Source: Motilimonas sp. E26 (GTDB lineage: Bacteria; Pseudomonadota; Gammaproteobacteria; Enterobacterales; CBDFNC01). Taken from it: a DNA stretch of 64,000 bases. Made by a program: the position numbers and the translations under genes. The stretch is from NCBI RefSeq assembly GCF_021278025.1, contig NZ_JAIBHJ010000004.1, forward strand, positions 62,001 to 126,000, given 5' to 3'. The notes under the pieces were generated by a model, which worked only from the letters and a program-made list of their open reading frames with translations, had not been told where the DNA came from and made no database searches. This document shows positions 16,111-39,980 of the stretch, one piece after another; position 1 is the first letter of the stretch, and each line of letters begins with the position of its first letter.

Positions 16111-18327
16111 ATGATGCAATCAGTTCAATCTCAGTTAAATAATGTCTCTGTATCGCAACCGAATGATTCTGCGGCGTTTATGGATCAAGAAGCTGACAGA
16201 CACATTGAATTTAAGCAAACCTATGAGGCTGCTAAAGCTAAGAAGGCGGAGCAACATGCTGATATTGAAAATGAGCAACAGGCAATACGTGCTAAGCAAG
16301 ATCAAGATATTCAGGCTGAAAAAGAGTTTGCAGATAAACAGAAAATAGAAGATGGCCAAAAAAAGGCTAATGAGTCGCTAACGGCGACAACTGACGGTAG
16401 CGAAAAGCAATCTGTAGCCTCTGACATAGGGCAAGATATCCTTGCTCAAATTAAGCAAGCAGAGCAACAGACCCCTAAGGCTCTGCGAGCTGATAGTACG
16501 GACTCTGCGGTTAAACCTGTGACCGCACTTAATTCTATCAGCCAAGCCTTAAAGCAAGCATTGCAACAGGAGTCTAATGAACAATCAGAAGAAGACTCAG
16601 CGTCGACCTATGAGTCATTGAATGATGCTCCTAGCCTAGCGAATTTGAGTGCAGATTCTTCTATTAGTAATGCTGAAGCATCACCTCATAGTAATGCTGA
16701 AGCATCACCTCAGTTTGAACAAGGCAAAATTAAAAGTACTGACAGCATTGAATCTTTACTCAATAAATTGACCTCTAAACTAGATGATGACGTTGTGGTG
16801 ACAGATCCGCACTCAGCGCTGAATCAATCAGAAATAAAAATAGCAAAGCAAGCTGCGCAAGAAACAGGCCCACTCGTTTCTGAAGAAGGGGTTAATCCGG
16901 AGACGGAGGAAGCGAAAGCTTTACAGCAGTTTGATACTCAGGCAGCTAAAGAAGCGGTTAATGTCGTAACTGAGGCAAAGGAGCAGTATGTTCAGTTAAG
17001 TCAACAGCGAGTAACGGCTGAGCAAAAAGAAAGTTCTGAAGGGGTTAAACCAATGGCGCAAGAAGCGGACGCTTTGGTATCAAAAAACATCCCAAAAGCG
17101 GATACTAGCGAACCCAACCAGCAGCAAGATACTCGAGTCGTTAGCCCAGCTCTGAACAACCAAGAGCCGAAGGCGGACGATACTGTTAGGCGTTCAGATA
17201 GCCATCAGGTACAAGGCGCAGAAACTAAGGCGACATTATTAGCCGAAAGTGAAGGTTATCAGGGAGCTAATTCTCAACTTAAGCCTTTAAATACACAGAC
17301 GACTAACATTGCTGAGACGGATGCGGTCGTAACAGATGTTGGAAAAGAAGCGGATAAATCCGTTGCAGTGGTTAATGCAGGCTTAGTGTCGTCGAAGGAA
17401 AAAGGCACCAATGTGACGACAGATGCGAAAGGGAATATTGTTGCAAATGCACCAGTAATCAATACTGAATCAGATGTGATGGCTAAGCGAACTGAATTTA
17501 AGCCAAGTGAGTTTGTTAATACACTGGACGCTAGCATGTCCGATAGCCAGGAAAAACCAGCTTCTTTGGGTGAGAAAGTTGAGCCAAATACAGCGAAGCT
17601 GCAAGCTAAAGAGCAGGTTAGTCAACTAGCTCAGCAGGAGCGTTTACTTAAAGAAAATCAGGCAATAGAATCATTTAAGAGCAATTTTAAAGAAGTTAAT
17701 ACAGACAGATATAATGCCCCTCAGCCAATGAATTTTGTACAACCGGCGGGCCAGTCAACAGCACCTGTAAGTCAAACATTTCAAGGTTTACATCATCACC
17801 AGCAACAACTAACCGCCGCGCAAAGTTTGAATAGTCAAGCTACGGCTAATATAAACGCTCAGCAAGCACAAACAACTAGCCAATTTGAATTGGGACAAAA
17901 GTTTGAGCTCGCTTCTCGTGAGGCGCCCACTATTATGCGTGAGCGGATCACCATGATGATGAATAAAGGGATAGGGCAGGCAGAAATACGCTTAGATCCA
18001 GCTGAGTTAGGCAGTATGCATGTCAAACTTTCGATGCAAAATGATCAGTTATCAGTCAGTATTCAAACGACGCAACCACAGAGTAAAGAGCTACTCGATC
18101 AGCATATGCCTCGGTTACGTGAAATGCTGACTCAACAGGGAATTAACCTAGGCGAAAGTCATGTAAGCCAACAGCAAAGTGGCTCACAACAAGGTGGTGA
18201 TTCCGCTCAAGGAAGTGGTTCAGGACAAGCCAGCACTGCTCAACAATCAAACATAGTTGAGGATTCACCGACCCAAACTGTGCGAAATTATGTGCAGTCA
18301 AACTCAGCAATCGATTTTTATGCTTAG
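16111..18327 (+). CDS. fliK: Flagellar hook-length control protein FliK
   Basis: The 738-residue protein has a very long, low-complexity N-terminal two thirds rich in Gln, Glu, Lys, Ala and Ser (the molecular-ruler part). The conserved C-terminal FliK domain contains IGQAEIRLDPAELGSMHVKL and LREMLTQQGINLGE, which contacts FlhB to switch export from hook to filament. A glutamine/serine/glycine tail follows. The N-terminal part diverges fast and includes a 24-base tandem repeat (16666-16713). The ruler is long for the family, which predicts a long hook if length scales as known in Salmonella. Confidence 0.93.
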   Translation: MMQSVQSQLNNVSVSQPNDSAAFMDQEADRHIEFKQTYEAAKAKKAEQHADIENEQQAIRAKQDQDIQAEKEFADKQKIEDGQKKANESLTATTDGSEKQSVASDIGQDILAQIKQAEQQTPKALRADSTDSAVKPVTALNSISQALKQALQQESNEQSEEDSASTYESLNDAPSLANLSADSSISNAEASPHSNAEASPQFEQGKIKSTDSIESLLNKLTSKLDDDVVVTDPHSALNQSEIKIAKQAAQETGPLVSEEGVNPETEEAKALQQFDTQAAKEAVNVVTEAKEQYVQLSQQRVTAEQKESSEGVKPMAQEADALVSKNIPKADTSEPNQQQDTRVVSPALNNQEPKADDTVRRSDSHQVQGAETKATLLAESEGYQGANSQLKPLNTQTTNIAETDAVVTDVGKEADKSVAVVNAGLVSSKEKGTNVTTDAKGNIVANAPVINTESDVMAKRTEFKPSEFVNTLDASMSDSQEKPASLGEKVEPNTAKLQAKEQVSQLAQQERLLKENQAIESFKSNFKEVNTDRYNAPQPMNFVQPAGQSTAPVSQTFQGLHHHQQQLTAAQSLNSQATANINAQQAQTTSQFELGQKFELASREAPTIMRERITMMMNKGIGQAEIRLDPAELGSMHVKLSMQNDQLSVSIQTTQPQSKELLDQHMPRLREMLTQQGINLGESHVSQQQSGSQQGGDSAQGSGSGQASTAQQSNIVEDSPTQTVRNYVQSNSAIDFYA
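16666..16713 (+). repeat. 24-base tandem repeat in fliK
   Basis: Two adjacent 24-base units (16666-16689 and 16690-16713) differ at one base and encode SNAEASPH and SNAEASPQ. The unit is a multiple of three, so gain or loss keeps the frame and changes ruler length by eight residues. Confidence 0.9.
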
Positions 18328-22664: not shown

Positions 22665-23795
22665 ATGGCAGAAGCTGACGGCCAAGAAAAAACCGAAGAC
22701 CCCACGGGGAAAAAACTCAGTGACGCGCGAAATAAAGGTCAAGTTACTCGCTCTAAGGACTTGGGGACGGCAGCTATTCTTATTATGGCTTCTTTTATTT
22801 TGATTATGCTTGGCGACAGCCTTGGCCATGCTTTTGTCATCATGATGACGGACGCATTTACTTTTGAGCGAGAAGCGGTGTTTGACCCTTCGCAAATGAT
22901 GGTGGTATTTGCGACAGGGATTGCTGAAATGGTGTTACCAACCCTAGCCATACTGATTGCTTTGTTTATAGCGGCCGTGGTCGGTACTATCGCATTGGGA
23001 GGCATGAACTTTAGTACCGAAGCCATGATGCCCAAATTTAGCAAGATGAGCCCTCTGGCTGGCTTCAAACGTATGTTTGGGACTCAAGGAGTAGTGGAGC
23101 TGTTAAAGTCAATCTTGAAAGTCGCCGTTATTGGATGTGGTGTATGGGGGATATTGCATTTTAGTTTTGCTGATATATTGGTGCTCAGTTCAACTCCATT
23201 TCCTTCCAGCGCAGAAGCGGCATTGGACATGCTGCTTTGGATGTTTCTTATTTTATGTATGAGTTTATTGGTGATTGTTGTGGTGGATGTGCCTTATCAA
23301 ATTTGGCATCAAAAAGAGCAATTAAAAATGACCAAGCAGGAAGTGAAAGATGAGCATAAAGACCAAGATGGTAAGCCGGAAGTAAAAGGGCGAATTCGGC
23401 GCTTACAAATGGAAGCGGCGCAGCGACGCATGATGGGAGAAGTACCTGATGCAGATGTTATTGTAACAAACCCGACTCATTACTCTGTGGCCATAAAATA
23501 CGACCCAAGTAAAGGGGGAGCCCCCATGGTCGTCGCGAAAGGGGTGGATCAAATTGCCCTTAAAATTCGAGAAATTGCGCGAGAGTATGAAGTGCCAGTA
23601 ATGAGCTCACCACAACTATGCCGGGCTATTTATCATACTACCGAGCTTGATCGCGAAATTCCCCATGAACTGTTTGTTGCAGTGGCGCAAATCCTTGCTT
23701 ATATCTTTCAACTTGAACAGTTTCGCAAAGGACGCGGTAAGAGGCCAACACCTTTACCCAAAGAGTTTGATATGCCACAAGGGTTTAAATACTAG
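22665..23795 (+). CDS. flhB: Flagellar export switch protein FlhB
   Basis: The 376-residue protein has four membrane helices and a cytoplasmic domain with the self-cleaving NPTH site at residues 269-272 (cut between N269 and P270). FlhB changes substrate specificity from rod and hook proteins to filament proteins when FliK signals. A second, stand-alone copy of the C-terminal domain type is encoded at 38066-38359 without this site. Confidence 0.97.
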   Translation: MAEADGQEKTEDPTGKKLSDARNKGQVTRSKDLGTAAILIMASFILIMLGDSLGHAFVIMMTDAFTFEREAVFDPSQMMVVFATGIAEMVLPTLAILIALFIAAVVGTIALGGMNFSTEAMMPKFSKMSPLAGFKRMFGTQGVVELLKSILKVAVIGCGVWGILHFSFADILVLSSTPFPSSAEAALDMLLWMFLILCMSLLVIVVVDVPYQIWHQKEQLKMTKQEVKDEHKDQDGKPEVKGRIRRLQMEAAQRRMMGEVPDADVIVTNPTHYSVAIKYDPSKGGAPMVVAKGVDQIALKIREIAREYEVPVMSSPQLCRAIYHTTELDREIPHELFVAVAQILAYIFQLEQFRKGRGKRPTPLPKEFDMPQGFKY

Positions 23796-37633: not shown

Positions 37634-38044
37634 ATGTTAGACCCATTAATTCAGACGAGCCTAATTGGGCTCGCATTACTGTTAGCTATTATTTCTCTTG
37701 TTTTTTCGGCGCTGGTGCAAAAAAAGCAGGCGAAGAAAATACAAGCCTTACAGCAATTAACAAAAGAGCTATTAAAATCAAAAGAGTCCCTCAATAAGCA
37801 AATCAGAGAGCTGCATTCAGGCTCAATTGGCTTAGGGAAAAAATTTCATCAATTAAATGAAGGGTTGAAAGAGGCCGTCGAAAAACAACAAGAAATTGTT
37901 GATACCGCACCTGACAATAAACTGTATACGCGCGCTGTGAAAATGGTCGCCCTTGGCGCTGGTTTAGAAGAACTGATGAATGAGTGTGAGTTACCAAAAG
38001 CGGAAGCTGAGTTGTTGCTCAGTTTACACGGCAAGTCTCGTTAG
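37634..38044 (+). CDS. DUF2802 membrane-anchored coiled-coil protein
   Basis: The 136-residue protein has one N-terminal membrane helix (about 8-28), a charged coiled-coil region and a small C-terminal domain (YTRAVKMVALGAGLEELMNE; AEAELLLSLH) that resembles a helix-turn-helix. It starts 3 bases after the cheW stop and matches the DUF2802 family found next to cheW in polar flagellates. I know no experimentally defined function. It converges on the minus-strand pair with 21 bases between. Confidence 0.75.
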   Translation: MLDPLIQTSLIGLALLLAIISLVFSALVQKKQAKKIQALQQLTKELLKSKESLNKQIRELHSGSIGLGKKFHQLNEGLKEAVEKQQEIVDTAPDNKLYTRAVKMVALGAGLEELMNECELPKAEAELLLSLHGKSR

Positions 38045-38065: not shown

Positions 38066-38359
38066 CTATATCTTGATATCGACTTGCTCTAGGGGATGAT
38101 TCCAATGTTCTGGGAACTTTCCTTGGAGTAAGTATGAGAAACTAATCAGTTCGGCGATTACTGTATATAGAGCTTCTGGAATTTCTTCTCCCTGCTCTAA
38201 ACTGTCCAAAAGTGAAAGTAAGTGCTCATCTTGATGCACGATTAAGCCTGCTTCGAGAGCGGCTTTATTTAACGCTTCTGCTTCATGTTCCTGCTTTTTC
38301 TGGCTAACCACAGGTGACTTAGATTTATCCAAATATGAAATAGCAATGGATTTTTTCAT
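38066..38359 (-). CDS. Stand-alone FlhB C-terminal-like protein
   Basis: The 97-residue protein aligns by eye to the cytoplasmic C-terminal half of FlhB after the cleavage site: AISYLDKSKSPVV, EAGLIVHQDEHLLSLLDSLE, then EEIPEALYTVIAELISFSYLL, which mirrors FlhB's HELFVAVAQILAYIF. The NPTH cleavage site and all membrane helices are absent. Similar small proteins (FlhX type) are known in other bacteria, where one can replace the cut-off FlhB part. It lies 16 bases after the FliK-like gene on the same strand, which suggests the two work together. Confidence 0.75.
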   Translation of the reverse strand: MKKSIAISYLDKSKSPVVSQKKQEHEAEALNKAALEAGLIVHQDEHLLSLLDSLEQGEEIPEALYTVIAELISFSYLLQGKFPEHWNHPLEQVDIKI

Positions 38360-38375
38360 ACCGAATCCTTAAATA

Positions 38376-39206
38376 TTAAACGATGATATTGATAGCTGCT
38401 TCATTGTGTATTTCTTTACAAAAATCCTCAGTAACCTTTCCGAGGAAGCTTTGGCAATGGTTTCGTACACCAGCTTTGCTAAGTTGCTCGCTTAACAAGC
38501 CTTGGTAAGCTTGTATTCTCGCTAAATCTGCCTCATGAGTCGTGTAAAGTTTTATATCAACTATCGATTCCTCTATCACTGCATGGGCTAACATTTCATG
38601 GTCACTGATAGGCAGCTTAAGTTGTATTTGCCATTTTTTTTTGCCTTTTTCGCTTTTTTTTGGCTGTTTGATCTTCAGTTGCACTGTTTTTAATTGCTGT
38701 TGCATGAACCATGGTAATTGCATCAACCACACTTGATGGTTGGGAGTATCATGTTGCGATACTTGAATTCCTTGTAGTACATCTTTTATCGCGTGCTCTA
38801 AACTAGAGGCTTGCAAGTCTTTAAATTTCATTGTCAATGCGAGCCAGCGTAGTGCCAGTTGATTGGCCTTATTTTTTTCAGGGGATAAAAGCTGTTGCAG
38901 TAACGATGTTAATGCCGATGGGCTAGTGGGAAACAGCTGACCCAGCAAAGTATGTAGCGCCTTAGGTTGACTTGTGAGGGGGAGTTTTTTTAATAAGGCG
39001 ATAAGCTGAGACAAATGTGAAGACAGAGGTTGTTTTTTTGCCAAGAGAGTCAGTTGAGCCATTTGCTTATTAACTTCTTCTGCTGAGCTGGGAGCTAAAA
39101 GATCGGGTGAGCTATTTGCTACCCAGTTACTGTTAAACTCTTTTTTCTCCAGAACCTTTACGGGCTGCGAGAGGGGCGGAGTTGAGTTTATCTTTTGAGC
39201 CATCAT
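38376..39206 (-). CDS. FliK-like protein
   Basis: The 276-residue soluble protein has a variable N-terminal part, a helical middle with repeated leucine-rich segments, and a C-terminal part (about 185-270) that resembles the FliK C-terminal domain: WQIQLKLPISDHEMLAHAVI, then LSEQLSKAGV. It is much shorter than the FliK at 16111 and has no Gln-rich ruler. It is the first gene of a two-gene unit with the FlhB C-terminal-like protein. The assignment rests on weak pattern matching plus that partner gene. Confidence 0.55.
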   Translation of the reverse strand: MMAQKINSTPPLSQPVKVLEKKEFNSNWVANSSPDLLAPSSAEEVNKQMAQLTLLAKKQPLSSHLSQLIALLKKLPLTSQPKALHTLLGQLFPTSPSALTSLLQQLLSPEKNKANQLALRWLALTMKFKDLQASSLEHAIKDVLQGIQVSQHDTPNHQVWLMQLPWFMQQQLKTVQLKIKQPKKSEKGKKKWQIQLKLPISDHEMLAHAVIEESIVDIKLYTTHEADLARIQAYQGLLSEQLSKAGVRNHCQSFLGKVTEDFCKEIHNEAAINIIV

Positions 39207-39320: not shown

Positions 39321-39980
39321 ATGCTGGAAGCAAAATCCCTCAGTTGCGTGAGAGAAGACAGGTTACTGTTCGAGGGTTTATCGCTTAAAGTTAAACCCGG
39401 TCAGATCATCCAAGTTGAAGGTCCAAATGGAGTGGGCAAGACCAGCTTATTCCGCTTATTAGTTGGACTTATGACACCTTACCATGGCCAAGTATTGTGG
39501 CAAGGGTTAGCTATATCTGACGATCGTGAAGCGTATCAACAAAATTTACTCTACTTAGGTCACCAGAGTGGGGTAAAGCCTGAGTTAAGTGCACTTGAAA
39601 ATTTACGTTTTTATCAAAAAATGTTTGAGCCTAGCTATCAAGGCGATCTTTACAGTGTGTTGGCACAGGTTGGTTTAGCTGGGCTGGAAGAGGTGCCCGC
39701 CGCGCAATTATCTGCCGGTCAGCAAAGGCGAGTGGCATTGGCACGGCTTTGGATTTCAACGGCGCCGCTATGGATTTTAGATGAGCCGTTCACTGCCATT
39801 GATAAAAATGGCGTGAAAGTATTAGAGCAACTGTTTGTTAAACATGCAGAGAATTCAGGCATGATCTTACTCACTACCCATCAAGACCTAAATTTGCCTG
39901 CGGCTGATTTTTCTAAATTGGTGATGGTCAAGCCATCATTAGAAGAGTTGTATGTTGGTATAGGTGCGGAAAAATGCTAA
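39321..39980 (+). CDS. ccmA: Haem exporter ATPase CcmA
   Basis: The 219-residue ABC ATPase has Walker A GPNGVGKTSL, the signature LSAGQQRRVALARLW, Walker B LWILDEPF and a switch histidine (LLTTHQD). With CcmB it powers release of holo-CcmE in system I cytochrome c maturation. It is the first gene of ccmABCDEFGHI and overlaps ccmB by 7 bases. Confidence 0.96.
   Translation: MLEAKSLSCVREDRLLFEGLSLKVKPGQIIQVEGPNGVGKTSLFRLLVGLMTPYHGQVLWQGLAISDDREAYQQNLLYLGHQSGVKPELSALENLRFYQKMFEPSYQGDLYSVLAQVGLAGLEEVPAAQLSAGQQRRVALARLWISTAPLWILDEPFTAIDKNGVKVLEQLFVKHAENSGMILLTTHQDLNLPAADFSKLVMVKPSLEELYVGIGAEKC

Follow-up and report, generated by a model that had tools for sequence, protein, structure and literature searches.

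A FliK-type protein and a soluble FlhB C-terminal domain encoded as a pair in Motilimonas: a plausible modifier of flagellar export switching

In Salmonella, the C-terminal domain of FliK acts on that of FlhB, the FlhA-C ring changes, and hook export ends (PMC10965912). We analysed a 64,000-nucleotide stretch of the Motilimonas sp. E26 genome (hereafter the window; contig NZ_JAIBHJ010000004.1, positions 62,001 to 126,000), which encodes a full FliK and a full FlhB and, at some distance, a further two minus-strand genes for a small FliK-like protein (here FliK2) and a protein resembling the C-terminal domain of FlhB alone (FlhX). The question raised by this locus is what a second version of these two switch partners might be for. 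The initial annotation had given the coordinates, lengths and spacing of the two genes, and the ORF list agrees with it throughout: they lie on the same strand, FliK2 first, 16 bases apart. It had also placed a FliK of 738 residues and an FlhB with NPTH in the export operon, as is the case (NPTH at FlhB residues 269-272). The features concerned are as follows.

38376..39206, minus strand: FliK2, 276 aa (ORF; leave-out profile, E=4e-20; AlphaFold and Foldseek; purifying selection); regions in the AlphaFold model: disordered 1-33, helical 42-146, beta-rich switch domain 148-255
38442..38765, minus strand: FliK2 residues 148-255, Flg_hook/T3S4-like domain after a family-specific W-x-x-E-L-P strand segment (pLDDT ∼80-97; leave-out profile alignment over residues 97-260)
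38066..38359, minus strand: FlhX, 97 aa, soluble, FlhB-CC-like (Pfam/NCBIfam; AlphaFold and Foldseek; residue comparison)
16111..18327, plus strand: canonical FliK of the same flagellar system, 738 aa (Flg_hook, 1.3e-25)
22665..23795, plus strand: canonical FlhB, intact NPTH and complete CC domain (TIGR00328, 2.4e-125; sequence)
37634..38044, plus strand: DUF2802 protein of the FipA type, outside the pair, tail to tail with FlhX (PF10975, 1.1e-22)
39321..39980, plus strand: ccmA-like ABC ATPase, first gene of the ccm operon, outside the pair, divergent from FliK2 (ORF)

The pair thus lies between the ccm operon and the tail of a chemotaxis cluster (cheW, DUF2802). Its upstream region, considered for a flagellar promoter, is conserved across three Motilimonas genomes, with no sigma-factor site assigned. 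FipA, a DUF2802 protein, is a recently described recruiter of FlhF and determinant of polar flagella (PMC11620751). Among named organisms, M. cestriensis (92%) and M. eburnea (61%) have the FlhX closest to that of the window. The genome of the window holds a single FlhA, and its only FlhB-C matches are FlhB and FlhX; with one full FliK, one full FlhB and one FlhA, the pair comes on top of just one flagellar system. A second flagellar system or a lateral substrate, the latter suggested in the initial annotation, is disfavoured for this genome on the same counts of FlhA and full FlhB. A second full-length gene of the FlhB/SctU type (G037:C26:14431-15459; 320 bits) is present in M. cestriensis and absent from the genome of the window.

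Domains and residues of the two proteins

FlhX matched Pfam Bac_export_2 at 32.8 bits (gathering score 24.4), with residues 4-73 aligned to profile positions 262-333, and TIGR00789 (flhB_rel) at 41 bits (E=1.6e-10), which is under the equivalog cut-off of 117.35 bits. Its AlphaFold model (pLDDT 86) retrieved the FlhB C-domains of Aquifex and Salmonella (3b1s, 3b0z) and the C-domains of PscU and YscU in Foldseek, all at probability 1.00. The transmembrane domain and NPTH autocleavage site of a full-length FlhB are both lacking, and what is present is the FlhB-CC fold without a membrane part, as described in the initial annotation. FlhX is in this respect a recognised protein, since stand-alone, FlhB-CC-sized proteins with the FlhB-C fold and no transmembrane part are known as FlhX or FlhB2 (TIGR00789; HP1575 of Helicobacter pylori, YlqH of Bacillus). 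HP1575 reportedly represents an FlhB 'spare part'. The gammaproteobacterial FlhX differ from TIGR00789 in having a C-terminal motif of their own, G-(K/R)-x-P, located after the last helix.

Fold and core residues are shared with FlhB-CC and with YscU, PscU and EscU of type III secretion systems; the residues common to FlhX and FlhB-CC are A-V-A-L-x-Y, A-P, A-K-G and I-P-x-x-L-Y-x-x-(I/V)-A. The differences from FlhB-CC are nevertheless systematic. The NPTH motif was found in none of 182 FlhX family members, and a comparison of 55 FlhX with 14 FlhB sequences placed the start of FlhX just past the position of the NPTH site, the preceding strand beta1 being missing. Residue 321 is deleted and leucine occupies the position of FlhB Tyr323 in all 55, while G352 (98%) and K353 (84%) are conserved across the FlhX family. 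FlhB Y323D bypasses FliK, and the Tyr323-type position in FlhB/YscU-type proteins is a site of FliK-type bypass mutations (PMC3040844). These residues mark FlhX as a separate subfamily rather than an FlhB in decay.

FliK2 was harder to place, as the window protein alone gave no acceptable match in the family libraries or the PDB. Homologues were therefore collected as the gene just upstream of FlhX; 54 of 60 such relatives match Flg_hook (PF02120), and a profile built without any Motilimonas sequence scored the window FliK2 at 68.5 bits (E=4e-20), against at most 8.1 bits (E=0.13) in 1000 shuffles. The same leave-out profile also recovered the window's canonical FliK at 46 bits, and the top PDB sequence match of the full profile was Salmonella FliK-C (2RRL, E=4.9e-6). 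The AlphaFold model contains a confident beta-rich domain with a long helix (residues 148-255), the combination also found in FliK-C and in the T3S4 domain of PscP. A Foldseek search of 350,542 PDB chains with this model ranked the PscP substrate-specificity-switch domain (5CUK) first (probability 1.00; TM 0.57 normalised to the PscP target) and FliK-C (2RRL) second (probability 0.99), with E-values of ∼0.08 that make this predicted fold match support rather than proof. Taken with the profile, it indicates that FliK2 is a divergent member of the FliK-C/T3S4 domain superfamily, and the FliK-like character proposed in the initial annotation for the 276-residue protein has thus held up.

Unlike FliK-C, the FliK2 family carries an extra conserved segment before the domain (L-A-R-x-Q-x-x-Q-L ... 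W-x-x-E-L-P ... L-x-I), and most of the canonical FliK matches listed begin past it, near FliK2 profile position 105. The long N-terminal ruler of a canonical FliK is missing from the window FliK2, which in its 276 aa has ∼33 disordered N-terminal residues followed by a helical region. The view of FliK2 as a small, ruler-less, reduced form applies to Motilimonas (269-276 aa) and fails for its relatives, which are mostly long (median 526 aa, up to 1278); across the family the N-terminus varies in length and the C-domain is conserved. The extremes are ORFs of 1278 and 1204 aa in an uncultured proteobacterium (L050) and a member of the Succinivibrionaceae (L074), more than four times the Motilimonas length and with the same FlhX partner. 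Relative to the closest relative, both FliK2 (dN 0.13, dS 0.83) and FlhX (dN 0.05, dS 1.9, the latter near saturation) are under purifying selection, which rules out a chance ORF or a decaying gene.

Co-inheritance, adjacency and flagellar context

A set of 274 genomes, sampled evenly from the Gammaproteobacteria, was searched with both the FlhX and the FliK2 profile, with thresholds (E<1e-13 for FlhX, E<1e-15 for FliK2) each set in or near the gap between strong matches and matches to canonical FlhB or FliK. Based on a match to flagellar FlhB, FliK or FlhX, 152 genomes were counted as having flagellar export. In counts compiled from transcribed match lists, both genes were found in 96 of these, FlhX only in six, FliK2 only in one and neither in 49, and a diverged FliK2 adjoins FlhX in four of the six FlhX-only genomes. 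The resulting correlation (phi 0.90) compares with 0.33 for a control pairing of FlhX with the flanking DUF2802 gene. FlhX and FliK2 were gained or lost concordantly in all 11 families of mixed state, a few of the genomes concerned being incomplete drafts. The two genes are adjacent in 94 of the 95 genomes in which both could be placed; the exception (G346) keeps both, ∼350 kb apart. About half of 163 pairs have an [AGT]TGA motif in which the stop codon of the upstream gene and a possible start codon overlap, which suggests coupled translation. Long open frames behind several apparent FlhX gene fusions proved, in all those inspected, to be read-through in another frame over the normal FliK2 stop in G+C-rich DNA. 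The co-occurrence anticipated in the initial annotation was therefore observed, and, since flagellated bacteria, in many cases, either retain both FlhX and FliK2 or lack both, the two are almost certainly partners; at the level of gene content, a functional pair of FliK-type and FlhB-C-type proteins is well supported. The pair is missing from about one third of the flagellated genomes sampled, so it is not essential for switching.

The same pair occurs in the same order in Pseudomonas aeruginosa, likewise beside ccmA (WP_003083123.1 and WP_003083121.1). There FliK2 has 492 aa and matches Flg_hook (1e-18), and the genes overlap by 4 bases, in contrast to the window. NCBI already names both genes singly, those of P. 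aeruginosa as 'flagellar hook-length control protein FliK' and 'EscU/YscU/HrcU family ... switch protein'. Adjacency of 'flhX-fliK' is mentioned in passing for Nitratiruptor (PMC9321776). A search of the open-licence literature found no functional study of the pair.

Outside the class the picture is mixed. In two genomes that were inspected, FlhX is part of the flagellar operon and is followed by flgF-flgG-flgA-flgH-flgI (neighbours identified by reading the sequences); in one of the two, a DUF2802 gene and a FliK-like ORF precede FlhX. A clostridial record has a flagellin gene after the pair and, before FlhX, an 847-aa protein that matches the FliK2 profile (E=2e-4). Some FlhX genes show no detectable FliK-like neighbour; in four such loci (L162, L163, L168, L188) the FlhX-type gene adjoins a CorA-type transporter-like gene. 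In Bacillus, the FlhB-like ylqH follows ylqG, as in the pair, and overlaps it by 4 bases. The end of YlqG gives a weak alignment to the FliK2 profile (E=0.001-0.003, better than 40 shuffles), whereas YlqG gave no match to Flg_hook; homology to FliK2 is thus suggestive only. The B. velezensis YlqG (L219:2301-4004), which overlaps the FlhB-like ylqH and whose end resembles FliK2, is annotated 'glycosyl transferase', likely a misannotation.

The pair depends on flagellar genes. Among the FlhX-positive genomes in which the FlhX profile did not pick up FlhB, a full-length FlhB is encoded in two; another (G177; 81% complete) has no FlhB or FlhA matches. A complete genome without FlhA and FlhB (G132) keeps the locus, with FlhX cut within its domain and the FliK2 ORF shortened; it was rejected as a sign of a non-flagellar role because of this cut frame. 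The G132 locus (L192, G132:C1:2588000-2598000) retains cheW, a DUF2802-like gene and FliK2; its FlhX breaks off at the junction with a sequence (GESLF...KFVLGIQAQANSKN) that is also present at the end of a nearby ORF and may be a mobile repeat. The pair was also considered as a marker of polar flagella and rejected, given the weak DUF2802/FipA correlation and the occurrence of FlhF in most flagellated genomes with or without FlhX.

An accessory export switch and its alternatives

The reading that we favour, at a probability of roughly 0.6, is that FliK2 and FlhX are dedicated partners in an accessory switch for flagellar type III export. It is based on the homology and fold of both proteins, their co-inheritance and adjacency, their dependence on flagellar genes, and selection. 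FliK2 would contribute its T3S4 switch domain, of the FliK type, and FlhX would substitute, in soluble form, for the C-terminal half that FlhB yields on cleavage. On the model of FliK-C and FlhB-C, the FliK2 C-domain would most likely bind FlhX, and the complex, its two parts made together, may work at the gate formed by FlhA and FlhB, where it would bias substrate switching or set its timing. With no NPTH, no residue 321 and leucine for Tyr323, FlhX would behave as an FlhB-CC that is always in the processed state and tuned differently, and not as a one-time switch. We infer the physical binding, the action at the gate and any effect on rod, hook or filament export from the better-known system, and a role of the pair as a modifier of substrate switching, put forward in the initial annotation, is in this sense plausible. 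That distal-rod genes lie nearby in some lineages is no more than a hint at an earlier step such as the rod.

The main rival, which we consider possible though rather doubtful, makes FlhX a cytosolic chaperone that would shield the switch domain of FliK2 from acting too early on FlhB and then deliver FliK2 to the gate, to be exported as a further protein that measures or switches. In its favour, FlhX is a small, acidic protein (median pI 5.2; 5.1 in the window) and the window FliK2 is basic (pI 9.4), yet the FliK2 C-domain is near neutral family-wide (median pI 6.4). Similarly, a C-domain conserved behind an N-terminus that takes FliK2 from 269 to 1278 aa is as expected of an exported ruler-type protein, as the frequent [AGT]TGA overlap would be of such a couple, but the length of the Motilimonas FliK2 leaves no room for a long ruler. 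The fold of FlhX, moreover, is that of FlhB-C and of no known export chaperone.

That same fold, with boundaries equal to those of the post-cleavage FlhB fragment, would suit a back-up FlhB-CC accompanied by a back-up FliK, for which HP1575 offers a precedent, going by a title (Wand et al. 2006, cited in PMC3040844). We regard this as improbable: the FlhB of the window is complete, and FlhX departs from FlhB at conserved positions (321, Leu323, G352, K353), so that it is under a constraint of its own. The strict pairing with FliK2 is likewise unexplained by a back-up role. Going by the neighbours instead, the pair might serve chemotaxis, polar placement via FipA or cytochrome c maturation, as it is often found where a che cluster ends or next to ccmA, and here is tail to tail with a FipA-type gene. 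This is very improbable, because the neighbours vary (among 113 FlhX loci of at least 5 kb, all of these genes are missing from 22, and those of the ccm group are the only ones in 18), the correlation with DUF2802 is weak, and FlhX lies beside distal-rod genes in the two genomes outside the class.

The accessory switch pair could be extended further, although only tentatively and with more doubt than confidence, to an ancient second export switch composed of a FliK-like protein and an uncleavable, retuned FlhB-CC. Such a switch might govern a step other than the classic hook-to-filament transition (e.g. distal rod completion or a reset between rounds) in about two thirds of the sampled flagellated Gammaproteobacteria, and possibly in the Bacillota as YlqG-YlqH.

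FlhX proteins have been known for some twenty years, and to our knowledge 'spare part' is the only function so far proposed for them. New here are the FliK-type partner with which FlhX comes, the evidence of their joint loss and the altered switch loop. FlhX can be told from a back-up by this partner, by the missing cleavage site and by a change in the same loop whose mutation in FlhB bypasses FliK. Genetically tractable flagellated bacteria carry the pair, and its co-inheritance turns the FlhX puzzle into a two-gene question of how type III export changes its cargo.
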